The position numbers and the translations under genes are program-made. From an uncultured Aequorivita sp. (GTDB lineage Bacteria; Bacteroidota; Bacteroidia; Flavobacteriales; Flavobacteriaceae): a stretch of 64,000 bases of DNA. Shown piece after piece: positions 9,111 through 64,000 of this stretch. The stretch covers positions 62,001 through 126,000 of the forward strand of contig CAKZLK010000038.1 of assembly GCA_937125455.1 (NCBI GenBank), in the 5' to 3' direction. The notes beneath the pieces are model-generated. The model did no database searches. It saw nothing but the letters and a program-made list of their open reading frames with translations, and was not told the origin of the DNA. How positions within the stretch are numbered: the stretch's first letter is position 1; each line of letters begins with the position of its first letter.

Positions 9111-9145
9111 TACGTACTTACACGTATTTTTTTGATTAAAATCAT

Positions 9146-9175
9146 TTTGAATTGCAAACAATAATAGTAACTTTC
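9146..9175 (+). promoter_or_regulatory. pfkA promoter (predicted leaderless)
   Basis: -33 TTTG at 9146-9149, an 18-bp spacer, and -7 box TAACTTTC at 9168-9175. The box ends 5 bp before the pfkA ATG, so transcription would begin at or next to the start codon. Confidence 0.5.
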
Positions 9176-15254: not shown

Positions 15255-16433
15255 TTAAAAAAGATTTTCATATTCTGAATCTCTTGAAGCCGCCTCTCGG
15301 TTTTTAACTCTTAAATAGTTTTTGTCTATCCTCCTACTGCGGTATCCCAATAAGTGTAAGAATTTTTTTGTGAAAAAACGGGCAATCTTTAAATTAACAA
15401 TCAACTCATCTTTTTTATTAGAAGCCCAAGAAACACCAGGAAGCAATGGTAAAATTCTATCGAAATGGATTGTTCGCAATACTTTTGAAATATTTAGGAA
15501 TATTTTTGGGATACGTCTTATCAGAAAAAAACCGTCATTTCCTTTTGCTTGGTATAAAGGCATAAAAACACGGCAGTTTTGATGTGCGAGTATGGGTTTT
15601 CCGTTACTATTTGCTAGATGTTTCCCGTTACTTATTATTTGAAAATTTGTAAAACCAGGATTCATTATAAAGTCTTCATCAGGTTTAATCTCATATTTTT
15701 TAAAAATCTCATAAAAGGATTGCAATCCTCTTGTATTATCGGATAAGTGGTTAAAGTACCCGTCAAAGTCTATTTCATTTTTTGAAATACTTCCACAGAA
15801 AACAAGTGATAGGTAAATAAATGCAATATGATTGTCGACGGCATTAGGATTTTCGTGTTGGCCACCTTCAAAACCAAAGGCAATATAGCCCAGTTCATTC
15901 GTATAGCTAAGTAGTGCTCCCTCCAAAAACTCCTCAATCCCGAGGATTATTGGTACTGGATATTTAGAGGTAAATTTTCTATTTAATAGGCTGTCATTAA
16001 CAGTAATGAATGGAACTGTTTGGCTGGAAGTGGTATGGAGATCAAAGAAATAAAAAGGACCCTTTTCTTCTTCAAGAATATTTTCTATAGTTCGATAAAT
16101 ATCCTTTAATTCATTGAATTCTGGGTTCGATGAGTCATTAACTCCATCTTTAATATGATTGAGATTTTCTTGGATCCATAGTCTATTTAAATCATTCTCT
16201 TGGTATCTAATTCCTTTTTGCAATGCAGGAAGATTACCTGCAATAGCATAAACATTTCCTTTGAAAATATCTTTTTTACATTTTAAATCCTTTAGCACTT
16301 TATCCAGTGCTATTATTCCTGCTGGTTCATTGCCGTGCATACCGCCAATAAAAAGAAGCGTTGGACCTTCAATCTTACCCTTTATTCTACCAATAATTCT
16401 ATTGTAGATGGCTGTATCAGAAACCTTAGTCAT
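15255..16433 (-). CDS. Succinylglutamate desuccinylase/aspartoacylase-family metallohydrolase
   Basis: 392 residues from the ATG at 16433, which overlaps the upstream ligase stop by 8 bp; a TTG two codons earlier is less likely. M14-like AstE/AspA fold: FIGGMHGNEPAGIIALDK carries the first zinc His and Glu, and YFFDLHTTSSQTVPFIT the second His. GFEGGQHENPNAVDNH carries the catalytic Glu region. It should remove an acyl group from an amino acid or amide. The tight overlap with a GCS2-type ligase suggests the pair makes and trims, or cycles, the same amide-linked compound. The specific substrate is unknown. It converges on yifB across a 15-bp gap. Confidence 0.82.
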   Translation of the reverse strand: MTKVSDTAIYNRIIGRIKGKIEGPTLLFIGGMHGNEPAGIIALDKVLKDLKCKKDIFKGNVYAIAGNLPALQKGIRYQENDLNRLWIQENLNHIKDGVNDSSNPEFNELKDIYRTIENILEEEKGPFYFFDLHTTSSQTVPFITVNDSLLNRKFTSKYPVPIILGIEEFLEGALLSYTNELGYIAFGFEGGQHENPNAVDNHIAFIYLSLVFCGSISKNEIDFDGYFNHLSDNTRGLQSFYEIFKKYEIKPDEDFIMNPGFTNFQIISNGKHLANSNGKPILAHQNCRVFMPLYQAKGNDGFFLIRRIPKIFLNISKVLRTIHFDRILPLLPGVSWASNKKDELIVNLKIARFFTKKFLHLLGYRSRRIDKNYLRVKNREAASRDSEYENLF

Positions 16434-18294
16434 TGTCAAAACTGATCACATCTTTAATGGTTATAATACCTACCAGATCTTCTTTATCCACAACGGGCAA
16501 GCAGCCTATGTCATGATTCTTCATGGTTTTAATGGCTTCCGTTATTTCAGTTCTGGGTGTTGTGACGATTACGTCTTTTTGCATAATATCAATTACTTTA
16601 AGTTTTGAGTAATCATCTTCATGATTTTGAAACTTCTGGGTATGCTTCCAAGTGAGTAGGCCCGTCAATTTCCCAGATCCATCTTCTACGGGCATATGAT
16701 GAATATTTTTCCATTGCATTAAATGGGTGGCCAAATTAGCTAAATCCTGCTCCTGCACGGTATATAATTCGGTAGTCATAATGTGGGTTACAAGATGTGC
16801 TTCCTGTTTAAGATAGCCCTCTTTTTTTATTGTTGGCCATAGATGCACTGGTATATTTTTTTTTTGATTTTTGTACATTGCCCGGGTAATTAGGCGTAAG
16901 GCATTGTCCTTTCGGATACTTTTTTTTAGAATACGATAATTTTTTATAATCCATTCCGAACCAGTTTGGCCTTTCAGTCTATCCTCAATAATGCCGAGCA
17001 GCTGTAATCTATCCGAATCATTAACTCCTGCTTTTTTTAAACCTTCATGGGCAATCGGTAGTAATTCGGTTAGTATTAGTTTTGTAGCGGAAATTGATTT
17101 TCCTTTCCATATTAGTATGGATTCACGGCCAGTTCTTGATGCCTTTATGAAGTTGGATTTTGCGTCCCGAAAATCCATGACTTTTGGCATATTGTCAAAT
17201 TCCGAAGGGCGGCCAATCATAATTCCGACCCATAGGGCAAAGTTGGCCATTTCGTCTAGGGTTGATGGTCCAGCGGGAATATATCTGTTTTCAATACGCA
17301 CATGTGCTTTTCCATTACCAACTCCATAACAAGGCCTGTTCCAGCGGTATACTGTGCCATTGTGCAAATTTAGGGCATGAAGTTTTGGTATGTTTCCATT
17401 TTTTAGCTCCGTCAGGGAATCATTTGGTATTTCTTTGGTCAATATTATTTTATGCTGTGCTATATCATTCTTAAATATTTCGGCTATAGAGCCTGTTGCC
17501 CATTTTTTTCCAAAGGAAACTCGCGGTTCCTGATCTTTTAAAACATAGGATTGTCGTCTTATGTCAATACTTTGTTGAAAGAGTGCAATACGAGTTTCAC
17601 ACCATAATTCCCGGCCTATCAACAAAGGTGAGTTCGTGGTTATGGCCATTATGGGCCCAGATATGGCTTGCGCCCAATTGTAGCTGGAAATAAAATCCTC
17701 TGGAGAAACTTGCAAATGGAGTTGAAAACTTGTGTTACAGGCTTCAAAAAGAACCGATGCGTGGGAAATGGATAACTCCTCAACACCCTTTATGAATAGC
17801 CGAAAATCAGTGCCTTTTACAGATGTAAGCATATCGTTTAGCGCCCAATACCTTGTTCGTGGGGTTATGTAATCCATTTCGAGCTCTGCCTTACTAATGG
17901 TAGGCAATATGCCTGTTAAAACAATCTTTGAGTTATATTTTTCAGCTTCTTTCTTGGCTTTTTTCAAAAGATAATTTAATTGTTCGCTAACCTTTTGAAA
18001 ACAGTCTGGTTTAAGTTCCACAGGATCTAAATTAATTTCAAGATTGTATTGTGCCAGTTCGGTAGTGAAATGACCATCATTAATTGCATCCAGTATAACT
18101 TCTGAGTTTTTTGCTGGACGCCAATGCTCATCAACTAAACAAAACTCCTGTTCCGCTCCAATACGGCGAATGCCACTTTCTATCATTTTTTTATTGAGCA
18201 TTATTTCCAATGCTTCAACATCATTAATGAGATGCTGGATAAACTTAGACCTTATATTGTCGTCATCAAGATTTTTTACATTTTGTTCTCCCAT
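16426..18294 (-). CDS. GCS2-type carboxylate-amine ligase fused to a CBS-domain pair
   Basis: 622 residues. Residues ~1-480 are a glutamate-cysteine ligase type 2-like ATP-dependent ligase: IRRIGAEQEFCLVDEHW at the N-terminus, then NLEINLDP and the VGNGKAHVRIENRYIPAGPST segment. Residues ~500-622 form two CBS motifs (HMPVEDGSGKLTGLLTW and IGCLPVVDKEDLVGIITIKD) that normally bind adenine nucleotides and would let energy charge gate the enzyme. Overlaps the acylase gene downstream by 8 bp. This is unlikely to be a standard glutathione enzyme because no GshB is present; the product is unknown. The architecture itself is clear. Confidence 0.82.
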   Translation of the reverse strand: MGEQNVKNLDDDNIRSKFIQHLINDVEALEIMLNKKMIESGIRRIGAEQEFCLVDEHWRPAKNSEVILDAINDGHFTTELAQYNLEINLDPVELKPDCFQKVSEQLNYLLKKAKKEAEKYNSKIVLTGILPTISKAELEMDYITPRTRYWALNDMLTSVKGTDFRLFIKGVEELSISHASVLFEACNTSFQLHLQVSPEDFISSYNWAQAISGPIMAITTNSPLLIGRELWCETRIALFQQSIDIRRQSYVLKDQEPRVSFGKKWATGSIAEIFKNDIAQHKIILTKEIPNDSLTELKNGNIPKLHALNLHNGTVYRWNRPCYGVGNGKAHVRIENRYIPAGPSTLDEMANFALWVGIMIGRPSEFDNMPKVMDFRDAKSNFIKASRTGRESILIWKGKSISATKLILTELLPIAHEGLKKAGVNDSDRLQLLGIIEDRLKGQTGSEWIIKNYRILKKSIRKDNALRLITRAMYKNQKKNIPVHLWPTIKKEGYLKQEAHLVTHIMTTELYTVQEQDLANLATHLMQWKNIHHMPVEDGSGKLTGLLTWKHTQKFQNHEDDYSKLKVIDIMQKDVIVTTPRTEITEAIKTMKNHDIGCLPVVDKEDLVGIITIKDVISFDND

Positions 18295-18482
18295 AATCTA
18301 AATATTTAGTGCATTGAGTGGGGCTATCTTCCAAATATAGTTAAACAGTAATATTATAAATATGATATGTATCAACTAGTTAATATTTTATCTCGATTTG
18401 ATTAAATTCGTTTTAACTTATTTTTAAGACTTAAACACACTTCTCATAGTATCTTTAAAACTTTCTTAAAAATCAATTCATT

Positions 18483-51650: not shown

Positions 51651-52415
51651 TTAAAAGAAAAGCTTTCTAATCCCTATAAAAACAAAAACCATGACTGTAT
51701 AAAATAAAAAGAAAGGCAAAATAATAGCTTTTAGACCTAATACAAGCATAACTGCAATAATGAGCAATTGAAAGCCCAAACCAAAGATAGAAACACTTGT
51801 CATAAACCAATTTGGAAATACTTCACCTTTATCCGCATTGCGATCTAAGGCATAAATGGTTTTATCAAATACTCCATAAAATAATTTATACAACCCAAAT
51901 AGAATATTTACATCCTTCTGTAATTCGCCTTTTAATGCTATTGGCGTTTTGTTTTCAAAAACACGACTGGTAGTGTCACCTTCAAATTTATTTCTTAAAA
52001 TAACGTAATAATAATTGTAAAGCGTTCCTTGTAATTGCATCCCCAAGAATGCTAAAAGGCATATCCAAATAGTACTGTTGGAAACATACCATATTGAGAT
52101 AAAAAATAAAGCATTTAATATAATGTCTGCTACAGAGTCTAAATACCGACCGGTATAAGACGGTTTTTCTTTTACACGAGCTAATTCACCATCTGCAGCA
52201 TCTAAAATTGATTTAAAAATTAAAAAGAATGCGGCTAACCAATAATAGCTTTGAATGATACAATAAATGGCAAAAAGACCAGATATTATAAAGCCAATAG
52301 TAATGTGAATAGGGGTGAAAGAAGTATTCTTGAGTGAGTTTGCTATAACTTTGGCTATTGGTCTTCCATAGTCTGAAAAATCAATAAATTTATGCTCTTT
52401 TGGTAATTTGGACAT
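51651..52415 (-). CDS. CDP-alcohol phosphatidyltransferase-family enzyme
   Basis: 254 residues, about six membrane helices. The full family motif DG-x2-AR-x8-G-x3-D-x3-D is present (DGELARVKEKPSYTGRYLDS followed by VAD, near residues 95-117). Joins a CDP-activated lipid to an alcohol such as inositol, glycerol phosphate or serine; the substrate cannot be assigned. Perfect -7 box TATATTTG on the minus strand at 52472-52465. Confidence 0.9.
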   Translation of the reverse strand: MSKLPKEHKFIDFSDYGRPIAKVIANSLKNTSFTPIHITIGFIISGLFAIYCIIQSYYWLAAFFLIFKSILDAADGELARVKEKPSYTGRYLDSVADIILNALFFISIWYVSNSTIWICLLAFLGMQLQGTLYNYYYVILRNKFEGDTTSRVFENKTPIALKGELQKDVNILFGLYKLFYGVFDKTIYALDRNADKGEVFPNWFMTSVSIFGLGFQLLIIAVMLVLGLKAIILPFFLFYTVMVFVFIGIRKLFF

Positions 52416-52464
52416 TAATTATCATTGCAAACCGTATTGTGGAATATACCAAATTAATTTAATG

Positions 52465-52472
52465 CAAATATA
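52465..52472 (-). promoter_or_regulatory. -7 box of the phosphatidyltransferase gene
   Basis: TATATTTG on the minus strand, 49 bp before the start codon. The divergent 352-bp gap 52416-52767 also holds the SQR-operon promoter; the middle (52480-52700) shows nothing else I can support. Confidence 0.5.
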
Positions 52473-52705
52473 CTGCTAAAAATAGCTAATGAGTTGGTTT
52501 TAGTAGGTAATTTTTTTTAATGAAAGAGTGTTCTGTTTTGAGGTTTTTCTGATGATGCTATATTTTGTCAAATTCAATTAAAAGTATTTTATTTTTTAGC
52601 TGAGATCTTTATTAAACTTAGTTATTCTTTAATATTAAAGTTTCAAAAATTGATTCCTTTTTTGAATGTCACTTTTTCAATTGTCCTATAACCAATTGCC
52701 AACAA

Positions 52706-52749
52706 CTGATTTTTATCATATTAAGAGTGGGTTTATAGAATTATATTTG
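52706..52749 (+). promoter_or_regulatory. Crp/Fnr-type site and -7 box of the SQR operon
   Basis: CTGA-TTTTTA-TCAT at 52706-52719 (centre 52712.5), then -7 box TATATTTG at 52742-52749. Centre-to-box distance 29.5 bp, placing the site near -42 relative to the predicted start. Same arrangement as six other promoters in this region. Confidence 0.7.
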
Positions 52750-52767
52750 TTTTAAATTAAAAAGAGT

Positions 52768-54009
52768 ATGAAAAATTTAGTCATATTAGGAGCAGGTACC
52801 TCAGGAACCATAATGGCCAATCATCTAGTTTCTAAACTCGATAAAAAAGATTGGAGTATCACCATTGTAGATCAGTATGAAACACATTACTACCAACCTG
52901 GTTTTTTATTTATGCCTTTTGACATATATAAGCCCAGTCAAGTTGTAAAAAAAGGACAAAAATTTATTCCAAAAGGTGTAAATTATATTGTAAAAGAAGT
53001 GGAATTAATAGTTCCTGAAAAAAATAAAATAGCCCTAGCAGATGGTGAGGAATTACCTTATGATATTTTGATTGTTGCCACGGGATCTAAAACAGCACCG
53101 CAGGAAACTGAAGGTTTAATAGGTCCAAATTGGTATAAAAACATATTTGACTTTTACACCTATGAAGGCTCTAAAGCTTTGAGAGAAAAGTTGCGCAATT
53201 GGGAAGGTGGGAAGTTAGTTGTTCATATTACCGAAATGCCTATTAAATGTCCTGTTGCACCGTTGGAGTTTGCTTTTTTAGCAGATGCTTTTTTTAAGGA
53301 TAAGAACATGCGGGATAAAGTTGATATTACATATGTAACTCCTTTGAGTGGAGCTTTTACAACAGCCGAAGCAACAAAAGTATTGCAGTATCTATTGGAG
53401 GAAAAAAATATCAAAGTAGTTAGTGATTTTAATATTGAAAGAGTTGATCAGGAAAATAATAAAATTATTGATTATGCTGAGACTGAAGTACCTTATGATT
53501 TATTGGTGACCGTACCTACAAATATGGGTGATGAACTTATAGAACGTTCAGGTATGGGTGACGATTTGAACTTCATACCAACTAATAAAGAAACGTTGCA
53601 GGCCGAAGCACATGAAAATGTATTTGTAATAGGTGATGCAACTAACGTTCCTACTTCTAAGGCGGGTTCTGTAGCTCACTTTGAGGCAGAAATTTTAATG
53701 GAAAACGTATTGGCTTATGCACATAATAAACCTTTTAAAGAAAAGTTCGACGGTCATTCAAATTGTTTTATAGAAACAGGTGGTGGCAAGGCTCTTTTAA
53801 TAGACTTTAATTATGAGCATGAACCTGTTGAGGGCACTTTCCCTATTCCTGGGATAGGACCTTTACAGCTCTTGAAAGAAAGCAGAATGAACCATATGGG
53901 TAAACTTGCATTTAGATGGGTATATTGGAATATGCTGTTAAAAGGAGTGCCTATTCCAATGGTTCCTTCTAAAATGACCACAAAAGGGAAAAAATATAAA
54001 ACGCAATAA
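52768..54009 (+). CDS. Sulfide:quinone oxidoreductase-like FAD enzyme
   Basis: 413 residues. FAD loop VILGAGTSGTIMAN (GxGxxG at residues 8-13), VATGSKTAPQ and the second FAD motif VFVIGDATNVPTSKAGSVAHFEAE. A cysteine in PIKCPVAPLEFAFLAD (about residue 161) and another in HSNCFIETGGG (about 333) correspond to positions used in SQR disulfide chemistry. Likely passes electrons from sulfide or a persulfide to menaquinone at the membrane face. First gene of an operon with DsrC/TusE and DsrE2, which supports sulfur handling. Confidence 0.85.
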   Translation: MKNLVILGAGTSGTIMANHLVSKLDKKDWSITIVDQYETHYYQPGFLFMPFDIYKPSQVVKKGQKFIPKGVNYIVKEVELIVPEKNKIALADGEELPYDILIVATGSKTAPQETEGLIGPNWYKNIFDFYTYEGSKALREKLRNWEGGKLVVHITEMPIKCPVAPLEFAFLADAFFKDKNMRDKVDITYVTPLSGAFTTAEATKVLQYLLEEKNIKVVSDFNIERVDQENNKIIDYAETEVPYDLLVTVPTNMGDELIERSGMGDDLNFIPTNKETLQAEAHENVFVIGDATNVPTSKAGSVAHFEAEILMENVLAYAHNKPFKEKFDGHSNCFIETGGGKALLIDFNYEHEPVEGTFPIPGIGPLQLLKESRMNHMGKLAFRWVYWNMLLKGVPIPMVPSKMTTKGKKYKTQ

Positions 54010-54029
54010 TAATTTTAAAAAAAGATATA

Positions 54030-54338
54030 ATGGAAAAAACTATCGCAGGTAAAACCGTAAATGTCAATGAAGAAGGATATTTAACAGATTTTTCTCAATG
54101 GACAAAAGAAGTTGGAGAAGAACTAGCAAAAGAACAAGGCATCCAATTAACACCAAGACATTGGGAAGTTATTGACTATGTTCAAGATAAGCATAAAAAA
54201 GATGAGGCGTTATCAGTAAGAGGCATTAAGAAGAGTGGTGTGTTCGATGTGAAAGAATTTTACGATCTGTTTCCTGGAGGCCCACTAAAAAAAGCAACCC
54301 TTATTGCTGGAATTCCGAAGCCAAAAAGTTGTATATAA
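54030..54338 (+). CDS. DsrC/TusE-family sulfur carrier
   Basis: 102 residues: EEGYLTDFSQWTKEVGEELAKEQGIQLTPRHWEVIDYVQD and the C-terminal FPGGPLKKATLIAGIPKPKSCI fragments are diagnostic. The penultimate Cys101 is present, while the second cysteine of dissimilatory DsrC (11 residues earlier) is Thr, as in TusE-like carriers. Carries a persulfide between proteins. 20 bp after the SQR gene and 18 bp before DsrE2. Confidence 0.88.
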   Translation: MEKTIAGKTVNVNEEGYLTDFSQWTKEVGEELAKEQGIQLTPRHWEVIDYVQDKHKKDEALSVRGIKKSGVFDVKEFYDLFPGGPLKKATLIAGIPKPKSCI

Positions 54339-54356
54339 ATCTATAAACTAAAGAAA

Positions 54357-54830
54357 ATGAGCACAAAAGTTAGAAAAATGCTTTTCATATTATCGAAAGG
54401 AACTATAGAGAATGCATATGCTGCCTTTATAATGGCCAATGGTGCACGTATGGAAGGTATAGAGTCTGAAATATTTTTTACGTTTTTTGGTTTAGAGGCC
54501 ATACAAAAGAAAAAACTAGAGCATCTTCATGTAGCTACCGTTGGTAATCCTGCAATGCATATGCCTACCATGTTGGGAGGTTTGCCAGGAATGGAAGCTT
54601 TGGCAACCAGCATGATGAAAAAAGAAATGGAGAAATTGGATATGCCCCCCATTGGAGAATTTTTAGAAATTCTTTCCGATTCTGGGTGTAAGTTATGGGG
54701 ATGTAAACTAGCTGTGGATATGTTCCATCTAAAAAGAGAAGATCTAATTGATGACTTAGATGGTATATTAACTATTGGAGATTTCTACAATAGAGCAGAT
54801 GAAGAAGGCTGCCAGCTTCTGTTTATTTAA
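54357..54830 (+). CDS. DsrE2-like peroxiredoxin-family sulfurtransferase
   Basis: 157 residues: ILSKGTIENAYAAFIMANGARMEGIESEIFFTFFGLEAI and the cysteine-containing SGCKLWGCKLAVDMF (Cys near residues 111 and 116) match DsrE/DsrF/DrsH-like family proteins of the DsrE2 group. No transmembrane helix is obvious. Last gene of the SQR-DsrC-DsrE2 operon; presumed to relay sulfane sulfur with the DsrC-like carrier. Confidence 0.85.
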   Translation: MSTKVRKMLFILSKGTIENAYAAFIMANGARMEGIESEIFFTFFGLEAIQKKKLEHLHVATVGNPAMHMPTMLGGLPGMEALATSMMKKEMEKLDMPPIGEFLEILSDSGCKLWGCKLAVDMFHLKREDLIDDLDGILTIGDFYNRADEEGCQLLFI

Positions 54831-55167
54831 ACTTACATATTGTCCTCGGCTATGAATGCTGGGTGGGTTGGTGCTTAATTTGCAAGCAAAAAACAAACCT
54901 ATTCAGCATTTTCAATATAAGAGCGATGCGAATTGGCACAAAAAAATTTTTAAGCTGGTTTGCAAGTATTTTGAATTGTTAAGTATTAATTAGTACTCAT
55001 TAATGAAAATTTGAAGGATGAAATTTAATAAGTGTTAATTTTCTCAGTTCTATATGATTGGAAATATTAATATTTGCAAAGGAATGATGGCTATCTGGAA
55101 CAATAGTAGAACGATTAATATATAGTCACTCGTCAAAGCAATTAATTATACTCAGTATTGGCAAAAT
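54831..55167. other. Non-coding gap with inverted repeats after the sulfur operon
   Basis: No gene seen in these 337 bp. A 7-bp inverted repeat (AATGCTG at 54855-54861 with CAGCATT at 54904-54910) and two TTTGCAAG words are present; the first 90 bp are richer in G/C than the rest. It may be the relic of a mobile element or a transcript end, but nothing decides this. Confidence 0.3.
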
Positions 55168-55923
55168 TTATTTCTTGTAACAATTGTCATTATAATACAA
55201 ATTGACCTTTAATAAAATTCCATTTATAAATTCCATAACCCTATCTTCATATTCTTTCCCGTCGTCGTTATTATAAATATACATTTTTAAAGTAGTTTCT
55301 ATAAGAGGTATTACTTTCGTCATTGGTTCGGTTAAGCAAGAATCAAAAACCTGTTTATAATTTGTTTTGTCAAAATTTTTATCCGCCATACAATTGCAGA
55401 AATCATCCTTAATTAAGTTTGAAAAATATTCCGAATATTCCTCCAATTTAAATATTGGCCACTTCACTATAAATGCATCTCGATTTATTTGCACAATCAA
55501 TATTTTTTTATTGTCTGGAAGCTTATCTATGGAAAATCGATTTACAACAAATTGACTTCCTCTGTGCTTATAAGGGTAAGTATCAAGAAAAACATTTAGT
55601 GTGTCATTCAAAAAGCCTTTAAATCCAGAACTGATATTTACTCCAATATCCTGTAAAGTATTTTTGCTTTTCAGAAATAGGGTGTCCGAATTTAATTTCA
55701 GTTTAATAAAGCTTAATTCAGATTGTTTAAGATGGTTGAGTTTTACCTTCTTTATGTTAGAATTCTTAATTTTCTCGGTTTGCTTATAACCATCTATATA
55801 TTCAATTATCAACTTTTTTTCTGCAATACTGTCAGCTCCTTTTACATTCATAAAGATGTTTTGAGCAGTCAAAAAATTTGATAAAAACAAAAAGACAAAA
55901 AGTAAGTTCGATAGTTTATTCAT
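55168..55923 (-). CDS. Secreted hypothetical protein
   Basis: 251 residues with a signal peptide (SNLLFVFLFLSNFLTAQN). The mature part is Lys/Ile/Asn-rich with a CNCMADKNFDKTNYKQVFDSC segment, where FCNCMA and a later Cys could form a disulfide or bind metal. No family recognised. Flanked by long non-coding gaps; no Crp/Fnr-type palindrome upstream. Confidence 0.62.
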   Translation of the reverse strand: MNKLSNLLFVFLFLSNFLTAQNIFMNVKGADSIAEKKLIIEYIDGYKQTEKIKNSNIKKVKLNHLKQSELSFIKLKLNSDTLFLKSKNTLQDIGVNISSGFKGFLNDTLNVFLDTYPYKHRGSQFVVNRFSIDKLPDNKKILIVQINRDAFIVKWPIFKLEEYSEYFSNLIKDDFCNCMADKNFDKTNYKQVFDSCLTEPMTKVIPLIETTLKMYIYNNDDGKEYEDRVMEFINGILLKVNLYYNDNCYKK

Positions 55924-56179
55924 AATTATTCAAACAAAGGATATAAAATTAGAAATAATATGGGATTAATTTTTTTCGATTTCTTCGTGTTTTAAAAAAT
56001 AAAAGCTGTTTCAATTAATTTATGTGTTTTACCTAATCATTACTTACTTTAATTTATCCATAAATGATCTCTTATCCATCTCTAAATTGTTATGTTTTAC
56101 AACTAATGCACAAAAAATATATTTTAAAGGATTTTGCTCGGAGTTAAACGAAGATCAATTATTTCTATATTAATGACAA
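55924..56179. other. AT-rich non-coding gap
   Basis: Spacer between the secreted hypothetical gene and the FadL terminator. Apart from a TATCCTTTG-like box on the minus strand at 55943-55935 I see no supported feature. Confidence 0.3.
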
Positions 56180-56209
56180 TAAAAAGCCACTTCGGTTAGG
56201 AAGTGGCTT
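56180..56209 (-). terminator. Terminator of the FadL-family gene
   Basis: 10-bp perfect stem AAGCCACTTC (56184-56193) with 56200-56209 and a 6-nt loop, followed on the minus strand by TTTTTA. It lies about 67 bp after the stop codon. Confidence 0.85.
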
Positions 56210-56276
56210 AAGTATTTAATATTAAATTGATTAAATAAATAATTGATGCATACAGACGTCTTTTGTCTTAATATTT

Positions 56277-57611
56277 TTATTGGTTGCTAGTATCAATTTG
56301 CGTTTTCTTAAAAGTATAATTAAACCCAACCATTAATAAATCTGTTGTCATATCATAAGATACTTCACTTCCGGGAATAGCTCCATAGGGAGGGTAGTTT
56401 TGGATAAAATTTGGATTTAATAATGGACCAGATGTTTTTCCACCGCTATCACCGTGATGGTATACAGCATTTAAGTTAAGTTTATCACTAACTTCATAAG
56501 TAAGACCTAATTGGAAAGCATTTTTTATAATAGCTGTTGCTGGAATATTAAAAAATACAACGTCGTTATTTATTGGGTTTGAACTGTATGTGTACCCAAC
56601 ACGTACTGGTAGTTTATTTATTCCTTTATATTGAATACCAGCAGAGATTATTGAAATATTTTGCCATCCAAAACCACTTACTGATGCCGTTGGAGTCCAA
56701 CCCGTTGTAGAAAAACCATCAGTATTTTCATAATCTACTAATCTATAATCCAAAGCAATATCAAAATCAGATTTTGAATATCCTAAACCAATAGAATAAA
56801 TTGCAGGATAGTCCATCTTAAATTCATTCGTGCCCGTTGAACTATCCAAATAGGTATTTTCGAATTTAAACTTGCTAAAAGATTGCGGAGTTTTATATGA
56901 TATACCAGCTTTAAATCCAGCTTTTGAATCATAAAATAAACCTATTTGCCCACCAAAACCTGTTGCTGAAGCTTTATCTGTTGATGGATATCCTGCTTCC
57001 GATGGATTTGCTGTTGGATTTGGCATAAGTTGGAGCGTAGCGTAATTAAAAGTGGGTTCAACACCAACGGATAGATTGTTGCTTAGCTCATAAGCCCAAG
57101 TTAAACCTACTTGTAGTAAAATGTAATCAGATTCAATACCACCAAATCCTCCCATACTCTGAGGCATATTAATAGGATTGGTCATACTTTCAGGAAAAGT
57201 GACTCCAAATCCGCTGATGCCAAAAGCAGAGGCACCGAAGGTGTGTTTGCTACCTTCTTTACCCCAAATTACTGCCAAAGCAGGCATGGGAGAAAGCCCT
57301 CTATCATCTTTAGTTTCCCCAGAAAAGAAATTTCCAGTGGGTTCACCCATATTGTTAAATTCAGGAACTGTTGAATATAAGGTAGGTGATGAGGAGAATA
57401 GTCCAATGTCAAAACTTATTATCGTTCCATCAAAAGTGGATATCGATGCAGGATTCCATTGCAAAGCACCTGATATATCTAAAGGTTGTCCTGTTGCAGC
57501 ACCACCCATTGACATGTTAACTGACCCTACACCTTGCATAATATGACCTGTTTGAGCCATAGCCGAAACAGAAAAAAGCAAATACAAAATTCTTGATAAA
57601 ATTGGTCTCAT
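56277..57611 (-). CDS. FadL/OmpP1/TodX-family outer-membrane transporter
   Basis: 444 residues with a signal peptide ending AMAQ. The N-terminal plug-like GHIMQGVGSVNMSMGGAATGQ with ALQWNPASIS is the OmpP1/FadL signature; alternating aromatic strands fill the rest (YELSNNLSVGVEPTFNYAT, GISYKTPQSFSKF). The final GFNYTFKKTQ is a beta-barrel end. Imports long-chain fatty acids or hydrophobic compounds. Its promoter has the Crp/Fnr-type box described at 57686-57729. Fatty-acid uptake fits with acs and the patatin downstream of it in the region. Confidence 0.92.
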   Translation of the reverse strand: MRPILSRILYLLFSVSAMAQTGHIMQGVGSVNMSMGGAATGQPLDISGALQWNPASISTFDGTIISFDIGLFSSSPTLYSTVPEFNNMGEPTGNFFSGETKDDRGLSPMPALAVIWGKEGSKHTFGASAFGISGFGVTFPESMTNPINMPQSMGGFGGIESDYILLQVGLTWAYELSNNLSVGVEPTFNYATLQLMPNPTANPSEAGYPSTDKASATGFGGQIGLFYDSKAGFKAGISYKTPQSFSKFKFENTYLDSSTGTNEFKMDYPAIYSIGLGYSKSDFDIALDYRLVDYENTDGFSTTGWTPTASVSGFGWQNISIISAGIQYKGINKLPVRVGYTYSSNPINNDVVFFNIPATAIIKNAFQLGLTYEVSDKLNLNAVYHHGDSGGKTSGPLLNPNFIQNYPPYGAIPGSEVSYDMTTDLLMVGFNYTFKKTQIDTSNQ

Positions 57612-57685
57612 AACAATCTATTTTATTGTAATTATTGAATATATTTTTTCAAAAACCACATGGTTATTATCTTATTTAAGTTCTA

Positions 57686-57729
57686 TAAAGGTATTCGTAT
57701 AAAACTTCAATAAATATGATAATTGTCAA
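57686..57729 (-). promoter_or_regulatory. Crp/Fnr-type site and -7 box of the FadL gene
   Basis: ATGA-TAATTG-TCAA at 57716-57729 (centre 57722.5) and, on the minus strand, -7 box TACCTTTA at 57693-57686. Spacing 29.5 bp. The rest of the 317-bp gap 57612-57928 shows nothing else. Confidence 0.68.
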
Positions 57730-57928
57730 TAGCTTGTTTAATAAATTTTATAATTAAAAGTAACCAAAATGTTACTTCTTCAAGTAAAACTTAAATAATA
57801 GAAAGAGTAACTTTTTCAACGGATTCGTCTTCTTTCTGATTAATACTTGTAGTTAAATGATTTAAGAAAAATTAAACATAAGAAGTGTATAGCACTACTT
57901 TTTATGCATTCGCTTTCAAAGAAATCTT

Positions 57929-59836
57929 TTAAACTGTGCCATCCATAATCTCCTGAACCACTTCTGGGTTTAGCAGTGTAGAGATATCACCCAGATTTTT
58001 AGTATCCTTTTCGGCAATCTTTCTTAAAATGCGGCGCATAATTTTGCCACTACGGGTTTTGGGAAGGCCAGTAGTAAATTGGATCTTGTCTAGTTTGGCT
58101 ATGGGGCCAATGTGTTCGGTGATTATTTGGTTTATCTCTTTACGCAGATTTTCATGTAGACGGGTTTCACCAATTTCCTTTAATATCACAAAACCATATA
58201 GGGCATTTCCCTTTACATCATGGGGGAAGCCCACAATGGCACTTTCGGCTACTGCAGGGTGTTCGTTAATGGCATCCTCAATAGGCGCAGTGCCTAGGTT
58301 GTGGCCAGAAACAATAATTACATCATCAACTCGGCCCGTAATACGGTAATAGCCCGTGCTGTCGCGCAAAGCACCATCACCCGTAAAGTATTTGTTTTCA
58401 TAAGCCGAAAAATAGGTTTCGTGGTAACGTTCATGATTGCCCCAAATAGTACGAGCCATAGCTGGCCAGGGAAATTTAATACACAACCGGCCACTCACGA
58501 GGTTACCTTTAAGCTCTTCTCCATTTTCATCCATCAGTGCGGGTTGAATTCCAGGCAAAGGTAAAGTAGCATAAGTGGGTATAGTTGGTGTGGAGTAGGG
58601 AATAGGTGAAATCATAATACCACCAGTTTCGGTCTGCCACCACGTATCAACAATAGGGCAGTTGCGCTTCCCGATATTGTCATTGTACCAGTGCCAAGCC
58701 TCTTCATTTATAGGTTCGCCTACACTTCCTAAAATTTTGAGGGAAGAAAGATCATAGTTCTCTGAAAAATCTAAACGTTCCTTCGCCAAAGCACGAATGG
58801 CAGTCGGTGCTGTGTAAAACTGATTTACTTTGTGCTTTTCAACTACTTGCCAAAAACGTCCAAAATCTGGATAGGAGGGAACCCCCTCAAACATAACAGT
58901 TGTAGCGCCATTTGCCAGCGGGCCGTACACTATATAGCTATGACCAGTAATCCAGCCAATATCAGCTGTACACCAAAACACATCGTTTTCGCGGTATTGG
59001 AAAACGTTTTTAAAAGTATAGGCCGTATAAACCATATAGCCTGCAGTTGTGTGAACCATTCCTTTAGGTTTTCCTGTGGAACCAGAAGTGTATAGAATAA
59101 ACAAAGGATCTTCAGCATCCATAATTACGGGATCGCAGTCATGGTAAGCTTCGTCTAATAATGGTTGTAACCATTTGTCGCGGTTTGGCTCCATCGGTAT
59201 TTCAGAGTGTATGCGTTTGGCCACCAAAACAGTTTTTACACTAGGACACGATTCCAATGCTTCGTCAACAATACCTTTTAAATCTATAGTTTTGCTGCCA
59301 CGATACGAACCATCGCTGGTAATGATCATTTTGCAATCTGAATCATTTATGCGTGTTGAAAGTGCTGTGGAAGAGAATCCGGCAAAAACTACGGAATGTA
59401 TCGCGCCAATGCGTGCACAAGCCAATAATGAAACCGCCAGTTCAGGGATCATTGGTAAATAGATACATACGCGATCACCTTTTTTTATGCCATGATTCTT
59501 CAATACATTGGCAAATCTGCATACGCGTTCGTGAAGCTGTTTGTAACTTATATGTTCTGCCTCTTCAGAGGGGTTATTAGGTTCAAAAATGATAGCAGTT
59601 TTATCACCACGGGTATAAAGATGTCTGTCTATGCAGTTTTCGGTAATGTTTAGCTTTGCGCCTTTATACCATGATACCTCGGGTTTTGAAAGGTCATACT
59701 CTAGCACTTTTTCCCAGCGTTTGCGCCACATAAAGTTTTCTTCAGCAATTTCTTCCCAAAAACTTTCTGGATCGCGTACTGATTTTCTATAAACCTGAAA
59801 ATATTCTTCTAAATTTTTAATGTGGTAATTGCTCAT
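57929..59836 (-). CDS. acs: Acetyl-CoA synthetase
   Basis: 635 residues, normal for Acs. Adenylate-forming enzyme: FILYTSGSTGKPKGMVHTT (P-loop), YFTGDGALRDSTGYYRITGR, VDDVIIVSGHNLGT and the regulated Lys in TRSGKIMRRIL (near residue 605). Activates acetate to acetyl-CoA via acetyl-AMP. Lysine acetylation may control it, as in the family. No TGA-N6-TCA site was found upstream, unlike its neighbours. Confidence 0.97.
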   Translation of the reverse strand: MSNYHIKNLEEYFQVYRKSVRDPESFWEEIAEENFMWRKRWEKVLEYDLSKPEVSWYKGAKLNITENCIDRHLYTRGDKTAIIFEPNNPSEEAEHISYKQLHERVCRFANVLKNHGIKKGDRVCIYLPMIPELAVSLLACARIGAIHSVVFAGFSSTALSTRINDSDCKMIITSDGSYRGSKTIDLKGIVDEALESCPSVKTVLVAKRIHSEIPMEPNRDKWLQPLLDEAYHDCDPVIMDAEDPLFILYTSGSTGKPKGMVHTTAGYMVYTAYTFKNVFQYRENDVFWCTADIGWITGHSYIVYGPLANGATTVMFEGVPSYPDFGRFWQVVEKHKVNQFYTAPTAIRALAKERLDFSENYDLSSLKILGSVGEPINEEAWHWYNDNIGKRNCPIVDTWWQTETGGIMISPIPYSTPTIPTYATLPLPGIQPALMDENGEELKGNLVSGRLCIKFPWPAMARTIWGNHERYHETYFSAYENKYFTGDGALRDSTGYYRITGRVDDVIIVSGHNLGTAPIEDAINEHPAVAESAIVGFPHDVKGNALYGFVILKEIGETRLHENLRKEINQIITEHIGPIAKLDKIQFTTGLPKTRSGKIMRRILRKIAEKDTKNLGDISTLLNPEVVQEIMDGTV

Positions 59837-59975
59837 TTTTTAAAGGATTTTGGGAGTATTTCCGAAACGATATCATTTCAGTTAGAAATATATTTAATTA
59901 TCACGACTCTTTAAACTAAAACTGGAATTTTATGAGGTGTTTTTAAATCAAGTAGAATTTTAAACATGGTTCTGA

Positions 59976-60743
59976 TTATTTAAAATCTACTAGATTATGA
60001 TTTTCCAATAGTTTTTTAGTAGTTGAATATCCTAACTGATAAATAGCATCTATATTTTTCATATCAAAGATTCCATATTTAGTAAGTTCTTCTGGGTAAA
60101 TAACTAGATCGCAGCTAGAAAACTTGTTTAATGATTCTCCAGCTACTTTAATTTTATATGCTCTTTCCACAACGGCGAAAGAGTGTTTTAAATCCTGTAT
60201 GCTCATTTTTTCTAATGGATTTACATAAACACCGATTATTTTATCACATTTAGCTACTAATGGTTCAACGGGAAAATTGTTAAGTGTTCCTCCATCAACG
60301 TAATAGGAACCATTAATTTGCGTAGGAGTAAAAACGCCAGGAAATGAAGCAGATGCGATTATGGGTTTGATTAATTGGCCCTGATTAAAAATTTTTAAAG
60401 TTCCTTTTATTATATCTGTAGCTGTAATATAAAGGGTTTTATTTAAAGCAGTGAAATCATCTTCTGGAAAATATTTTTTAAGGTCTCCATAAAAATTTTC
60501 ACTATCGATGAATCCAGGTTTTTTGAATGCATATCTGTTGGGTCGAAATATGGGAATAGTTTTAAAAAAATTTAATATATCCATCCATGGCACACCATTA
60601 GCGTATAATGCTCCAACAATAGCTCCTGAACTTGTGCCAGAAATATGTGTGGCAATGATACCTTCTTCTTCTAACGCTCTAATAGCACCAATATGGGCAG
60701 CTCCTCTAGCGCCACCACCTGATAGTACCAATCCTATTTTCAT
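59976..60743 (-). CDS. RssA-type patatin-like phospholipase
   Basis: 255 residues: IGLVLSGGGARGAAHIGAIRAL (oxyanion glycines), ISGTSSGAIVGAL (GxSxG nucleophile, Ser about residue 40), and the catalytic Asp in YYVDGGTLNNFPVEPL. Cytoplasmic lipid acyl hydrolase of the RssA/NTE group. Promoter with Crp/Fnr-type box at 60764-60807. Second patatin of the window, very different in architecture from the one at 22592-25165. Confidence 0.9.
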   Translation of the reverse strand: MKIGLVLSGGGARGAAHIGAIRALEEEGIIATHISGTSSGAIVGALYANGVPWMDILNFFKTIPIFRPNRYAFKKPGFIDSENFYGDLKKYFPEDDFTALNKTLYITATDIIKGTLKIFNQGQLIKPIIASASFPGVFTPTQINGSYYVDGGTLNNFPVEPLVAKCDKIIGVYVNPLEKMSIQDLKHSFAVVERAYKIKVAGESLNKFSSCDLVIYPEELTKYGIFDMKNIDAIYQLGYSTTKKLLENHNLVDFK

Positions 60744-60763
60744 TATAAATTTTATTTTGACAG

Positions 60764-60807
60764 TAAATATATCAAAGGGAAGGGTTTAAAGCTATGACAT
60801 AGATCAT
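60764..60807 (-). promoter_or_regulatory. Crp/Fnr-type site and -7 box of the patatin gene
   Basis: ATGA-CATAGA-TCAT at 60794-60807 (centre 60800.5) with -7 box TATATTTA on the minus strand at 60771-60764. Spacing 29.5 bp. Confidence 0.7.
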
Positions 60808-60857
60808 TTTAAAATGACAGGGCAGATAGAAAAAGCAGGGGTAGAATAATAATAGAT

Positions 60858-60901
60858 ATGACTTTTATCATTTTATAAATGTACTATTTATGATACATTT
60901 A
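60858..60901 (+). promoter_or_regulatory. Crp/Fnr-type site and -7 box of the small helical protein
   Basis: ATGA-CTTTTA-TCAT at 60858-60871 (centre 60864.5) with -7 box TACATTTA at 60894-60901. Spacing 29.5 bp. With the preceding site it makes a divergent pair of independently activated promoters. Confidence 0.7.
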
Positions 60902-60928
60902 AATTCTCATATTTAATAATTTCAGATC

Positions 60929-61315
60929 ATGGAAAAGCAACTTATTTTCAACTCAGACTTACATTTTGAACACAATCAATGGAGAAGTGAACTTGACTTT
61001 TGGGAAGACGAATTAAAGTCCTTTAAAAATCGCTTAGAAGAATTAGTTAATCGCTGGACCGATAAGGAAGTGCTAGCGCAACTAGAACATTTTCAAAATT
61101 CATTTATTCGCCATGGAGAGATCATAGACATATTGCAACACGATATTAATGCCCATGAAACCAATATGAGTTCTCTTGATGCGAAAGGTGAAAATGCACT
61201 AAATAAGGATCTTGTTAAAACTCATCTTGAGTTTAGAAATAGAATGGAAACTCACAGGCATATTTATGCAAACCTTAAGAAAGATTTTTTTAAATTTCTT
61301 TCTAAATATATGTAA
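60929..61315 (+). CDS. Small helical protein of a redox/stress regulon
   Basis: 128 residues, all-helical and coiled-coil prone: WRSELDFWEDELKSFKNRLEELVNRW, then LEHFQNSFIRHGEIIDILQHDINAHE and LVKTHLEFRNRMETHRHIYANLKKDFF. It is rich in His and Glu spaced as in four-helix bundles (for example hemerythrin-like), which would suit a redox function, but no named family is recognised. Good control context: a Crp/Fnr-type site just upstream. Followed by 286 bp without a gene. Confidence 0.65.
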   Translation: MEKQLIFNSDLHFEHNQWRSELDFWEDELKSFKNRLEELVNRWTDKEVLAQLEHFQNSFIRHGEIIDILQHDINAHETNMSSLDAKGENALNKDLVKTHLEFRNRMETHRHIYANLKKDFFKFLSKYM

Positions 61316-61553
61316 TTTTTCCAGCTAATTAACCCTGATTTTTCTGTAAAATGAAGACTATTTGAATGTTTTTGTACTCAACCCTAGGACTAAAAAAAGT
61401 GTTTAATTTTATTTATAAGAGCTATAATTTACTACCCATTGAATTTAATTAGAAATTTTGATGAAATGGATAGCTCTTTTATTGATGTGCAAAATTTCAG
61501 ATACATTTGAGTGAATATGAAACTACTATTCAGTAAAAAGTTAAACTTAAAAC

Positions 61554-61590
61554 AAAAAAAGGAAGGAAATCAAATCTCCTTCCTTTTTTT
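61554..61590. terminator. Bidirectional terminator by the Hsp20 gene
   Basis: GGAAGGA (61561-61567) pairs with TCCTTCC (61577-61583), flanked by seven A and seven T, so it works in both directions; it lies 12 bp after the Hsp20 stop. The gap 61316-61553 upstream shows nothing I can support. Confidence 0.85.
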
Positions 61591-61601
61591 GTTTCTTCTC
61601 A

Positions 61602-62036
61602 TTAAGAAATCGCTACTTTTTTTGGTTTCTTTAGTTTATTTTCTTCTTTTTTGATGAGGTTGAAACTTAAAATACCATCTTTATAATGAGCTTTTACAGT
61701 ATCTTCCTTTACTGAATCTGGAAGCTGTAATCTTTTCTTAAAAGAGCTGTAGCTAAACTCCTTACGAGTATAGTCATCTTCTTTCTCTTCTTTAGATTTT
61801 GAGTTTTCTGCAGAAATGTTTAAGCATCCATTATCAATGGTTACATCAAAATCTTTCTTGGCAAACCCAGGCGCAGCCAATTCAACTTCAAAAGCATCAT
61901 CGGTTTCCTTAATGTTTAATGCTGGTTCATCCAGTTTTTTGCTCCATAAACGGTTGTTGAAGAAATCATCGTCATCAAAAAAATCTGATGTAATTAAACT
62001 TCCCCAAGGCTTTCTGTTAAATTTAACTAGTGACAT
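61602..62036 (-). CDS. Hsp20/alpha-crystallin small heat-shock protein
   Basis: 144 residues, usual for Hsp20. Alpha-crystallin domain: LNIKETDDAFEVELAAPGF, KKDFDVTIDNGCLNISAE, YTRKEFSYSSFKKRLQLPDSV and AHYKDGILSFNL. Binds unfolding proteins without ATP. Start ATG at 62036; -7 box and Crp/Fnr-type palindrome upstream link it to the regulon. Confidence 0.95.
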   Translation of the reverse strand: MSLVKFNRKPWGSLITSDFFDDDDFFNNRLWSKKLDEPALNIKETDDAFEVELAAPGFAKKDFDVTIDNGCLNISAENSKSKEEKEDDYTRKEFSYSSFKKRLQLPDSVKEDTVKAHYKDGILSFNLIKKEENKLKKPKKVAIS

Positions 62037-62073
62037 AATTTTATAATTTTAAGTTAAACATTATTTTATAACT

Positions 62074-62117
62074 GTAAATTACAGAAGGTTAGTTAATTAT
62101 AAAATGACATAAATCAT
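62074..62117 (-). promoter_or_regulatory. Crp/Fnr-type site and -7 box of the Hsp20 gene
   Basis: ATGA-CATAAA-TCAT at 62104-62117 (centre 62110.5) with -7 box TAATTTAC on the minus strand at 62081-62074. Spacing 29.5 bp. Confidence 0.7.
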
Positions 62118-62132
62118 ATAATTATATATTTT

Positions 62133-62744
62133 TCACTTTGATTTGTGTAATTTATAAACTGTGTAGGTATTGTCTTTTTTACGTAAAGCAATAAGACTAT
62201 CATTAATAAATTTGGAGAGGATGGTAGGTGGATTTTGTTTTAATTTTAGACTGTCTAACAATAAATTATTAGGCCCTCTAAGGTGTTGTATTATTTCATT
62301 TTTAGTGTCAATCACCAATTCATTATAGCTATAGTTTACAATATTCTTTCCAAGTGCATTGATGGCGCCTGTATCTTCTTTATAGTATTTAATAACTCGG
62401 GCAAAGCCATTTTCAAATGGTGTAGCAACCAGATAGTCTGCAGGAATCACTTTATCACCTTTGGTGTTAATATAGCCATAGAATGTAATACCATCTCTCA
62501 CTTCTTGAACTAAACAGAGTCCGTCGTTAAAAAGAGGAGCTCCATTAGGAGGAACAACTAAATCTTTTCTGTAATCTAAAATAAGTGTTCCGTTATTGTT
62601 AATAAACCCCCAAGAATTACCTTTTTTCACTGCTGCAAGTCCTTCTTGAAAGGGAGCTATTTCATCAACCTCTGTAAGTATTTGGGCGTTTGAAAGAAAA
62701 GATAAACTTATTAGCAACAGAGTGATTAATATTGAACGTTTCAT
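62133..62744 (-). CDS. Secreted WG-repeat protein
   Basis: 203 residues with a signal peptide (KRSILITLLLISLSFLSNAQ). Two to three WG-type repeats: FQEGLAAVKKGNSWGFINNNGTLIL, FNDGLCLVQEVRDGITFYGYINTKGDKVI and FENGFARVIKYYKEDTG. Such repeats build beta-structures that bind proteins or the cell wall. Function unknown. Promoter with Crp/Fnr-type box. Nothing but this site, its twin and leader sequence lies in the gap 62745-63095. Confidence 0.85.
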   Translation of the reverse strand: MKRSILITLLLISLSFLSNAQILTEVDEIAPFQEGLAAVKKGNSWGFINNNGTLILDYRKDLVVPPNGAPLFNDGLCLVQEVRDGITFYGYINTKGDKVIPADYLVATPFENGFARVIKYYKEDTGAINALGKNIVNYSYNELVIDTKNEIIQHLRGPNNLLLDSLKLKQNPPTILSKFINDSLIALRKKDNTYTVYKLHKSK

Positions 62745-62791
62745 ATATACCTATTTTAATTATTTAACTTCCTTATTACTAATAACATTGA

Positions 62792-62835
62792 TAAAAATAA
62801 GTGTTGTTTTAGCCTTTTAAAATGATATTCGTCAG
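62792..62835 (-). promoter_or_regulatory. Crp/Fnr-type site and -7 box of the WG-protein gene
   Basis: ATGA-TATTCG-TCAG at 62822-62835 (centre 62828.5) with -7 box TATTTTTA on the minus strand at 62799-62792. Spacing 29.5 bp. Confidence 0.65.
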
Positions 62836-62854
62836 TTCAACTAAAATTATATAA

Positions 62855-62898
62855 ATGACCAATGTCATTGTATTGATAAGTTTTGAAGTATACTTTAG
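62855..62898 (+). promoter_or_regulatory. Crp/Fnr-type site and -7 box facing the universal stress gene
   Basis: ATGA-CCAATG-TCAT at 62855-62868 (centre 62861.5) with a weak -7 box TACTTTAG at 62891-62898. Spacing 29.5 bp. The predicted start near 62904 leaves a leader of about 190 nt before the ATG at 63096; a 19-codon open frame (62934-62993) lies within it. Confidence 0.6.
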
Positions 62899-63095
62899 TT
62901 TTTTAAAATGATAGTAATTGTATTGGCTGACTTATGAAAAAAAGCGAAATGAACAATTTACAGATTCTACAATCTATGGGAACCCAACATTGAAAACATT
63001 ATGCATAACGTTACTATAGAAAAATAGAACCAAAGATTTTGCCCTTTTTAGATTTTTTAAAAGTTTCAATGGTAATTAATTAAGATCCTTCAAAA

Positions 63096-63950
63096 ATGAA
63101 AAATATTTTACTTCCTACAGATTTTTCCATGAATGCTTTCAATGCAATCGAATATGCCATACAACTTTTTAAAGAAGAAAATTGTACATTTTATCTACTC
63201 AATACATTTACCCCCATGGCTTACAATGTAGCCACTCTTTCAGATAGCTATTCTACGATGATGATAGAGGAAATTAACAGACAAAATTCGAAAAACGGAC
63301 TTTTGGAAATTGAAAAACAACTAAAAAAGAAATTTAATAACCCCAAACACACTTTTCAAACATTAGCCTCTTTTAATTTATTGGTCAGTGAAATTAAAGC
63401 TGTGGTCAAAGAACGCAATATTGATTTAATAGTAATGGGCACTAAAGGAGCAACAGGAGCACAAGAAGTGTTTTTGGGCACAAATACTATGTATACAATT
63501 AAAAAGGTGAAATGTGCTGTAATCGCAGTACCTGCGAATATGAAATATGAAAAACCCAAGGAGGTTTTATTCCCAACAGACTTTAAGTTTTCTATGGAAA
63601 ATAAATATCTGAAACTTCTAAAGTCTATTTGTACAAAACATATATCTCGACTAAATATCTTAAATATTTACTTCGGGGTGCCTCTAGACTCCTCCCAAGA
63701 GAAAGTAAAAGATCAATTAGAAGACTTTTTTAAAGATAACGCCCACCTATTTCATACACCTGAATATGTAGATTTAACTGAGGCCGTGACGCAATTTCAG
63801 ATAAAATATAAAGCTAATTTCTTAGTGATGATTAATAATAAACATTCCTTTTTTGAAAACCTATTTTTTAAACAGGTCATCAAAGAAATGGTATATCATA
63901 CAAATGTGCCTTTTATGGTAATCCCTTCCACAGAATTGATGAAATCTTAG
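63096..63950 (+). CDS. Universal stress protein, two tandem Usp domains
   Basis: 284 residues. First domain: NILLPTDFSMNAFNAIEYAI, LIVMGTKGATGAQEVFLGTNT (the GxnG-type ATP loop) and CAVIAVP. A second, degenerate domain begins KPKEVLFPTDFKFS and ends NVPFMVIPST, with the ATP loop eroded to MINNKHSFFENLFFKQ. Two-domain Usps are common stress and hypoxia proteins in Bacteroidota. Likely induced with Hsp20, WG protein and the SQR operon through the shared promoter type. Confidence 0.93.
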   Translation: MKNILLPTDFSMNAFNAIEYAIQLFKEENCTFYLLNTFTPMAYNVATLSDSYSTMMIEEINRQNSKNGLLEIEKQLKKKFNNPKHTFQTLASFNLLVSEIKAVVKERNIDLIVMGTKGATGAQEVFLGTNTMYTIKKVKCAVIAVPANMKYEKPKEVLFPTDFKFSMENKYLKLLKSICTKHISRLNILNIYFGVPLDSSQEKVKDQLEDFFKDNAHLFHTPEYVDLTEAVTQFQIKYKANFLVMINNKHSFFENLFFKQVIKEMVYHTNVPFMVIPSTELMKS

Positions 63951-63963
63951 TCCTTTATATAAC

Positions 63964-63977
63964 CTGATATAAATCAT
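63964..63977 (+). promoter_or_regulatory. Eighth Crp/Fnr-type site at the window edge
   Basis: CTGA-TATAAA-TCAT, centre 63970.5. At the 29.5-bp spacing seen elsewhere, the -7 box would start at 64000, the last base of the window, which is T as required. Confidence 0.5.
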
Positions 63978-64000
63978 TTTATGCTTGAAGTTTAGGTACT

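Follow-up and report, generated by a model that had tools for sequence, protein, structure and literature searches.

Which protein reads a palindrome that recurs at one fixed distance from the promoter box in an uncultured Aequorivita species? The question is raised by a 64,000-nt stretch of contig CAKZLK010000038.1 (here, the window; contig C38 of the 3.73-Mb genome G000), where a first-pass annotation had described seven promoters carrying TGA-N6-TCA, centred 29.5 bp from a TAnnTTTG-like box, as a Crp/Fnr-type regulon. From sequence comparison within the Flavobacteriaceae, we consider it likely that these promoters belong to a class II oxygen-limitation regulon read by a fusion of a receiver domain with a Crp-type protein, under the control of a PAS histidine kinase. 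All seven sites were recovered, each with a TAnnTT box at exactly 29.5 bp, but every palindrome starts one base later than had been given. The longer form TAnnTTT was found in five of the seven boxes, whereas those of the Hsp20 and universal stress protein (USP) promoters (TAATTTAC and TACTTTAG, respectively) match TAnnTT only. Both strands are represented, as claimed (three plus, four minus). Moreover, an inner pyrimidine/purine pair that had not been noted is common to all seven sites, giving TGAY-N4-RTCA. The putative activator sites, all found by sequence match, are listed here with their partner boxes (on the same strand) and the genes behind them; coordinates are those of the window unless a contig (C) or locus (L) identifier is given.

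52707..52718, plus strand: site TGATTTTTATCA; -7 box TATATTTG at 52742-52749; SQR-like/DsrC/DsrE operon at 52768-54830 (Pfam on three genes)
57717..57728, minus strand: site TGACAATTATCA; box TACCTTTA at 57686-57693; FadL-type outer membrane protein at 56277-57611 (Pfam)
60795..60806, minus strand: site TGATCTATGTCA; box TATATTTA at 60764-60771; patatin phospholipase at 59976-60743 (Pfam)
60859..60870, plus strand: site TGACTTTTATCA; box TACATTTA at 60894-60901; 128-aa helical-looking protein at 60929-61315 (no Pfam match)
62105..62116, minus strand: site TGATTTATGTCA; box TAATTTAC at 62074-62081; Hsp20 at 61602-62036
62823..62834, minus strand: site TGACGAATATCA; box TATTTTTA at 62792-62799; WG-repeat protein at 62133-62744 (Pfam)
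62856..62867, plus strand: site TGACCAATGTCA; box TACTTTAG at 62891-62898; USP at 63096-63950 (Pfam)

The first-pass annotation had held that seven sites, all in phase, could not be due to chance. The bare palindrome is not rare but close to expectation: it occurs 26 times in the window (52 when counted on both strands), whereas 200 first-order Markov simulations gave a both-strand mean of 43.5. The composite of palindrome and box, however, lies far above simulation. TGAN6TCA-N23-TANNTT was found 9 times in the window versus a simulated mean of 0.48 (none of the 200 simulations gave more than 4); in positions 52001-64000, it was found 7 times versus a mean of 0.09. For larger samples, a strict composite was defined as TGAY-N4-RTCA-N23-TANNTTT, with the reversed pattern as control. 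A genome-wide search, which had been proposed earlier, returned the strict composite 28 times in G000 (a count that leaves out the Hsp20 and USP sites, with their TAnnTT boxes) versus 2 reversed copies, 1 per strand. In 149 genomes of the family Flavobacteriaceae, there were 2352 strict composites versus 177 reversed. Outside the family, 238 genomes were searched: 30 genomes of other orders in the class gave 175 composites versus 20 controls, three same-order genomes of family f2 gave 13, 12, and 7 versus 1, 2, and 3, respectively, and for the remaining 179 genomes of the phylum no total was taken, and no single count above 9 was noticed.

The distance itself was examined in 69 loci outside the Aequorivita group, each fetched because of the regulator gene that it contained (11 of the 80 loci, L058-L068, were set aside). 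Among 903 site orientations, a box stood at 29.5 bp 293 times, compared with a mean of 5.5 and a maximum of 14 at 71 other distances; when all 80 loci were used, the count was 338 versus a mean of 5.9 and a maximum of 15 elsewhere. Four control palindromes had 0-1 boxes at 29.5 bp. Letters fixed by the pattern carry no evidence, and only the free positions do: T follows the site in 97% of cases, the base before the site is C (54%) or A (30%), and A or G follows the box in 95%. These combined data confirm that the earlier observation is real and larger than first reported.

The window also contains three sites that the first-pass annotation had missed:

9133..9144, plus strand: site TGATTAAAATCA (sequence match); box TAACTTTC at 9168-9175, plus strand; 6-phosphofructokinase at 9181-10164
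18363..18374, minus strand: site TGATACATATCA (sequence match); box TATATTTG at 18332-18339, minus strand; 622-aa protein with CBS domains at 16426-18294
63965..63976, plus strand: site TGATATAAATCA; box beyond the window end (composite at C38:125965-126006 of G000); 128-aa protein without Pfam match at L021:232-618

The 6-phosphofructokinase site, which ties glycolysis to the same code, has a near-identical composite in the genus genome G027. Directly past the window (L021:3760-20000), an efflux and metal-transport cluster follows the regulon genes, as judged by eye from the list of open reading frames (ORFs).

Where would such a site lie relative to the start of transcription? Crp/Fnr proteins have their class II position at -41.5. 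Mapped promoters in the published Flavobacterium psychrophilum transcriptome carry the TAnnTTTG box at -12 to -5 (PMC9723704), and because of this box position and the 29.5-bp spacing, the palindrome centre is placed at -41.5. The two observations together support the earlier claim of a class II position, near -42 and at a single fixed distance. The half-sites TGA and TCA are six bases apart, as in class II sites of this kind, and the centre near -41.5 is reckoned from starts inferred from F. psychrophilum. The putative sites touch the -33 region. In the combined set of 372 composites (from the 80 loci, nine stretches of G000, and the window), 358 have a same-strand ORF start within 300 bp, and these ORFs begin a median of 19.5 nt (quartiles, 15 and 23) from the expected start site. 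One could suppose that the pattern is a coincidence of composition or promoter architecture, such as a variant of the -33 element, with no Crp-type activator involved; the T found after the site in 97% of cases does overlap the place of that element. This explanation is extremely improbable. TGAY/RTCA is two-fold symmetric, four control palindromes did not show the effect, reversed-pattern counts were low, and site density is near background where both of the candidate regulators described below are missing from a genome of at least 90% completeness. The coincidence is thus already contradicted by the controls.

The regulator had been predicted to lie outside the window, and a candidate is indeed encoded elsewhere, on contig C15. 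A census of Crp-type proteins in G000 gave seven matches each to the cNMP domain and to HTH_Crp_2, and three of the HTH_Crp_2 matches exceed the curated cut-off. One of these proteins, of 350 aa (C15:29463-30512), has the Pfam domains Response_reg, cNMP_binding, and HTH_Crp_2, and a 411-aa PAS histidine kinase is encoded directly upstream of it. The pair is surrounded by nosZ, cbb3 oxidase, hemN, HPF, and universal-stress genes, with sites before several of these. Contig C15 holds 11 of the 28 strict sites of G000, followed by the window contig (8), C19 (3), C58 (3), C47 (2), and C17 (1). Full-length relatives of the fusion were found in 66 of the 149 genomes (67 matches at E<=1e-30, one by the receiver only). 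In the recognition helix, E316, I319, and R320 are present in 81 of 81 fusion rows. The features of a response regulator are likewise present: the receiver keeps its phospho-acceptor Asp52 in 80 of 81 rows (with one gap) and Lys104 in all 81, and the partner kinase is adjacent. By a strict rule the kinase is directly upstream of the fusion in 74 of the 80 loci, and in three more the called starts overlap; a kinase search of the remaining loci L086, L111, and L124 gave no match, L124 being cut at its end. On these grounds, the regulator is probably this receiver-fused Crp and not an ordinary Crp/Fnr protein.

The kinase-fusion pair of G000 has a divergent site of its own (L015:18177-18221, on C15). 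Its 29.5-bp box is on the side of the neighbouring gene (L015:17711-18115, minus strand), which encodes a member of a 134-aa family that matches neither Pfam nor NCBIfam. Towards the kinase, CTTACTTT stands at 29.5 bp, and TACTTTTG, a candidate box through which the kinase-fusion operon might regulate itself, begins 2 bp farther out, at 31.5 bp and immediately ahead of the kinase start. In 9 of the 11 Aequorivita-group loci (L058-L068, near 8715), a TAnnTTT box is kept at that distance on the kinase side, and in the same nine TCAG replaces TCAT.

Thirty fusion-less genomes, 18 chosen as site-rich and 12 as site-poor, were searched with the cNMP-HTH part of the fusion. Matches were found in 16 of the 18 site-rich and 5 of the 12 site-poor genomes, and nearly all best matches were stand-alone proteins of about 225-230 aa with an N-terminal CxxC. 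This FNR-like protein is present in 90 of the 149 genomes at E<=1e-40, and at that threshold it is absent from G000 and G027, both of which have the fusion. A third N-terminal cysteine is missing in some rows, and in one of these proteins the match to the Fnr model falls short of the cut-off (86 of 228 bits). The helix TES-x-IR is common to the fusions and the stand-alone proteins; in a tree of 47 rows, the 21 fusion rows formed one group (support 93/92). When site density was compared in genomes at least 90% complete, it was 7.63 sites/Mb with both regulators (n = 34), 5.52 with the fusion only (n = 29), 3.15 with the FNR-like protein only (n = 46), and 0.82 with neither (n = 17), the controls being at 0.29-0.45.

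These densities also bear on whether the real activator is another Crp/Fnr paralogue of G000, namely P0003 (C19), P0004 (C59), or one of those on C38, C43, C20, and C16. P0003 is encoded downstream of a composite, and P0004 carries the Crp-type helix VETVIR. However, P0003 occurs in 126 of the 149 genomes, motif-free ones included, and where both the fusion and the FNR-like protein are lacking (28 genomes), having P0003 made no difference (1.54 vs 1.63). P0004 occurs in 32 of the 149, and the density is 3.95 sites/Mb with it and 5.06 without. Both were rejected as regulators, since neither tracks site density; the comparison covered these two paralogues. Site density follows the fusion and the CxxC FNR-like protein, not P0003 or P0004, and we regard a paralogue as an improbable activator. 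The composite upstream of P0003 (L020:13861-17128, on C19) precedes an operon that looks Mla-transporter-like by eye, with P0003 as its last gene.

How far is the code kept within the genus? Loss of the pattern in orthologous promoters had been named earlier as evidence that would count against a regulon. Close Hsp20 orthologues were found in 2 of 27 other genus genomes, G149 (81%) and G167 (79%), and five promoters of the cluster were compared there. In G149, counterparts of the patatin, helical-protein, WG, and USP sites are present, with the exact distance kept and other letters changed, but hsp20 has none. In G167, the WG, USP, and hsp20 promoters have counterparts; patatin is present without a site, one further composite points away from it, and no helical protein was found. 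Within the genus this cluster is an accessory one, and the code largely stays with it where it is present. In 9 other loci, 10 sites precede a 138-aa protein that by eye resembles the 128-aa helical-looking protein (60929-61315), although blastp at 1e-6 did not join the two.

What signal would the kinase sense? Among PDB sequences, the nearest to its PAS domain are DosP and FixL. The position aligned with what we take to be the haem-ligating histidine of DosP is His in 75 of 78 kinases, and the phospho-acceptor His is present in 78 of 78. The pattern of PAS His and Arg residues is suggestive of haem sensing without being proof of it. The target genes were examined as well, with the reservation that picking the loci by their fusion gene biases the spectrum. 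Among the 358 sites with a downstream gene, 148 precede USP genes (in 74 loci), 29 precede HPF, 8 precede hemN, and 14 precede a small ORF, presumably CcoS-like, directly before cbb3 oxidase. The 134-aa family was behind 43 composites in 42 loci, by which it is a predicted conserved regulon member of unknown kind. Two tandem, related small protein genes on C47 (L024:9277 and 9832) have a composite each. The first-pass annotation had suggested sulfide, low oxygen, or redox stress: low oxygen gains from the cbb3, hemN, HPF, and USP genes behind composites, whereas sulfide as the main signal was rejected, as a single operon of the sulfide type lay behind a site. When oxygen is limited, F. psychrophilum is reported to raise its cbb3 and haem genes (PMC9723704). 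From the targets, the PAS likeness, and this induction, low oxygen is therefore the best inference, and oxygen limitation is the likely signal.

Alternatively, the fusion may read the sites while the PAS kinase reports general redox state, nitric oxide, starvation, or respiration rate. The USP, HPF, Hsp20, and patatin targets would suit dormancy or starvation as well, nosZ lies close by, and the distal-side PAS residue Arg87 is kept in only 56 of the 78 kinases. Nevertheless, cbb3 and hemN behind the same code favour oxygen, as does the PAS similarity to DosP and FixL, and we consider a signal other than oxygen possible but unlikely. Other observations, together with the variation of Arg87, weigh against an oxygen-limitation regulon read by the fusion. 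The same PAS histidine is also found in non-haem PAS domains. The density comparisons carry no phylogenetic correction, and neither do the Mann-Whitney tests over all 149 genomes (fusion only vs neither, p = 1.3e-8; FNR-like only vs neither, p = 1.3e-7). G048 (82% complete) and G147 (73%) have 31 and 18 sites, respectively, and a search for the fusion and the FNR-like protein found neither there. Six sites or fewer were counted in 17 of the 55 FNR-like-only genomes, which include G002, G012, G026, and G100 at 99-100% completeness. Since P0003 is behind a composite, a regulatory cascade is possible. Finally, 20 of 21 loci around more distant Hsp20 homologues of the genus had no composite; L158 has one before hsp20.

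How does the putative fusion-read regulon compare with known systems? The FixL-FixJ-FixK system of rhizobia is similar in its PAS histidine kinase (nearest DosP/FixL), its cbb3 and hemN targets, and a Crp-type protein at the promoter. There, the output of FixJ is of the LuxR type and FixK is a protein of its own; here, the receiver and the Crp-type DNA-binding part are in one protein, to which Pfam assigns Response_reg, cNMP_binding, and HTH_Crp_2 and no LuxR/FixJ-type output. Enterobacterial FNR, like FnrL, shares the Crp fold, the class II position, low-oxygen genes, and, with the stand-alone relatives, the CxxC. The canonical FNR site is TTGAT-N4-ATCAA (half-site TTGA) and the CRP site TGTGA-N6-TCACA (half-site GTGA). 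Both were rejected for our sites because the outer bases differ, with T on the promoter side (+12) in 97% and C (54%) or A (30%), together 84%, upstream (-1). Nor was a cysteine-bearing FNR-type regulator found at E<=1e-40 in G000, where the only cysteines of the fusion are Cys51 and Cys154. The regulon is set apart from FixLJ and FNR because the canonical sites do not match, G000 has no FNR-like protein, and the output is Crp and not LuxR. The DosRST system of mycobacteria also has USP, Hsp20, and a hibernation factor in its hypoxia regulon; its kinase is a haem kinase, its regulator is NarL-type, and its site is different. NmpRSTU of Myxococcus xanthus is described as a two-component system with cbb3, hemN, and hemerythrin targets and a proposed role in the response to oxygen depletion; the paper names universal stress proteins 12 times, and the system differs in having NtrC-like response regulators and a protoglobin-domain kinase (PMC11841059). 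Flavobacteriales Crp/Fnr homologues have been treated as MalR-like in a published account (PMC8510549). In the open-licence literature, no title or abstract start among the matches listed describes the site or a receiver-Crp regulator in Bacteroidota.

From the site, its spacing, its co-occurrence with the fusion, the gene neighbourhood, and the conserved residues, we infer how the system may work. The sites would bind a class II activator, with their centre at about -41.5, on Bacteroidota promoters of the sigma-A type. The upstream PAS histidine kinase would sense low oxygen, perhaps through haem, and phosphorylate Asp52 in the receiver of the fusion; the phosphorylated fusion would bind TGAY-N4-RTCA as a dimer, contact RNA polymerase over the -33 region, and so activate transcription. 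In many relatives, the stand-alone CxxC FNR-like protein, which may sense the signal directly and has nearly the same recognition helix, would read the same code instead or as well. We lean slightly towards the view that the sensor was swapped while the promoter code stayed frozen: one low-oxygen cis-element would be read across the Flavobacteriaceae either by the CxxC FNR-like protein or by the kinase-controlled fusion, and Aequorivita-type lineages would keep only the fusion, merging the roles of FixJ and FixK. Regulation at the level of activators is, in our judgement, poorly mapped in Bacteroidota. A code exact to the base pair, together with a candidate regulator, would make low-oxygen regulons predictable from sequence across the family. 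These regulons would take in cbb3 oxidase, hemN, and the hibernation and universal-stress genes, along with several genes whose function is unknown. If it is true that two modes of sensing share one code, this would be a clean natural case in which the input of a network has been rewired while its promoters remained fixed.

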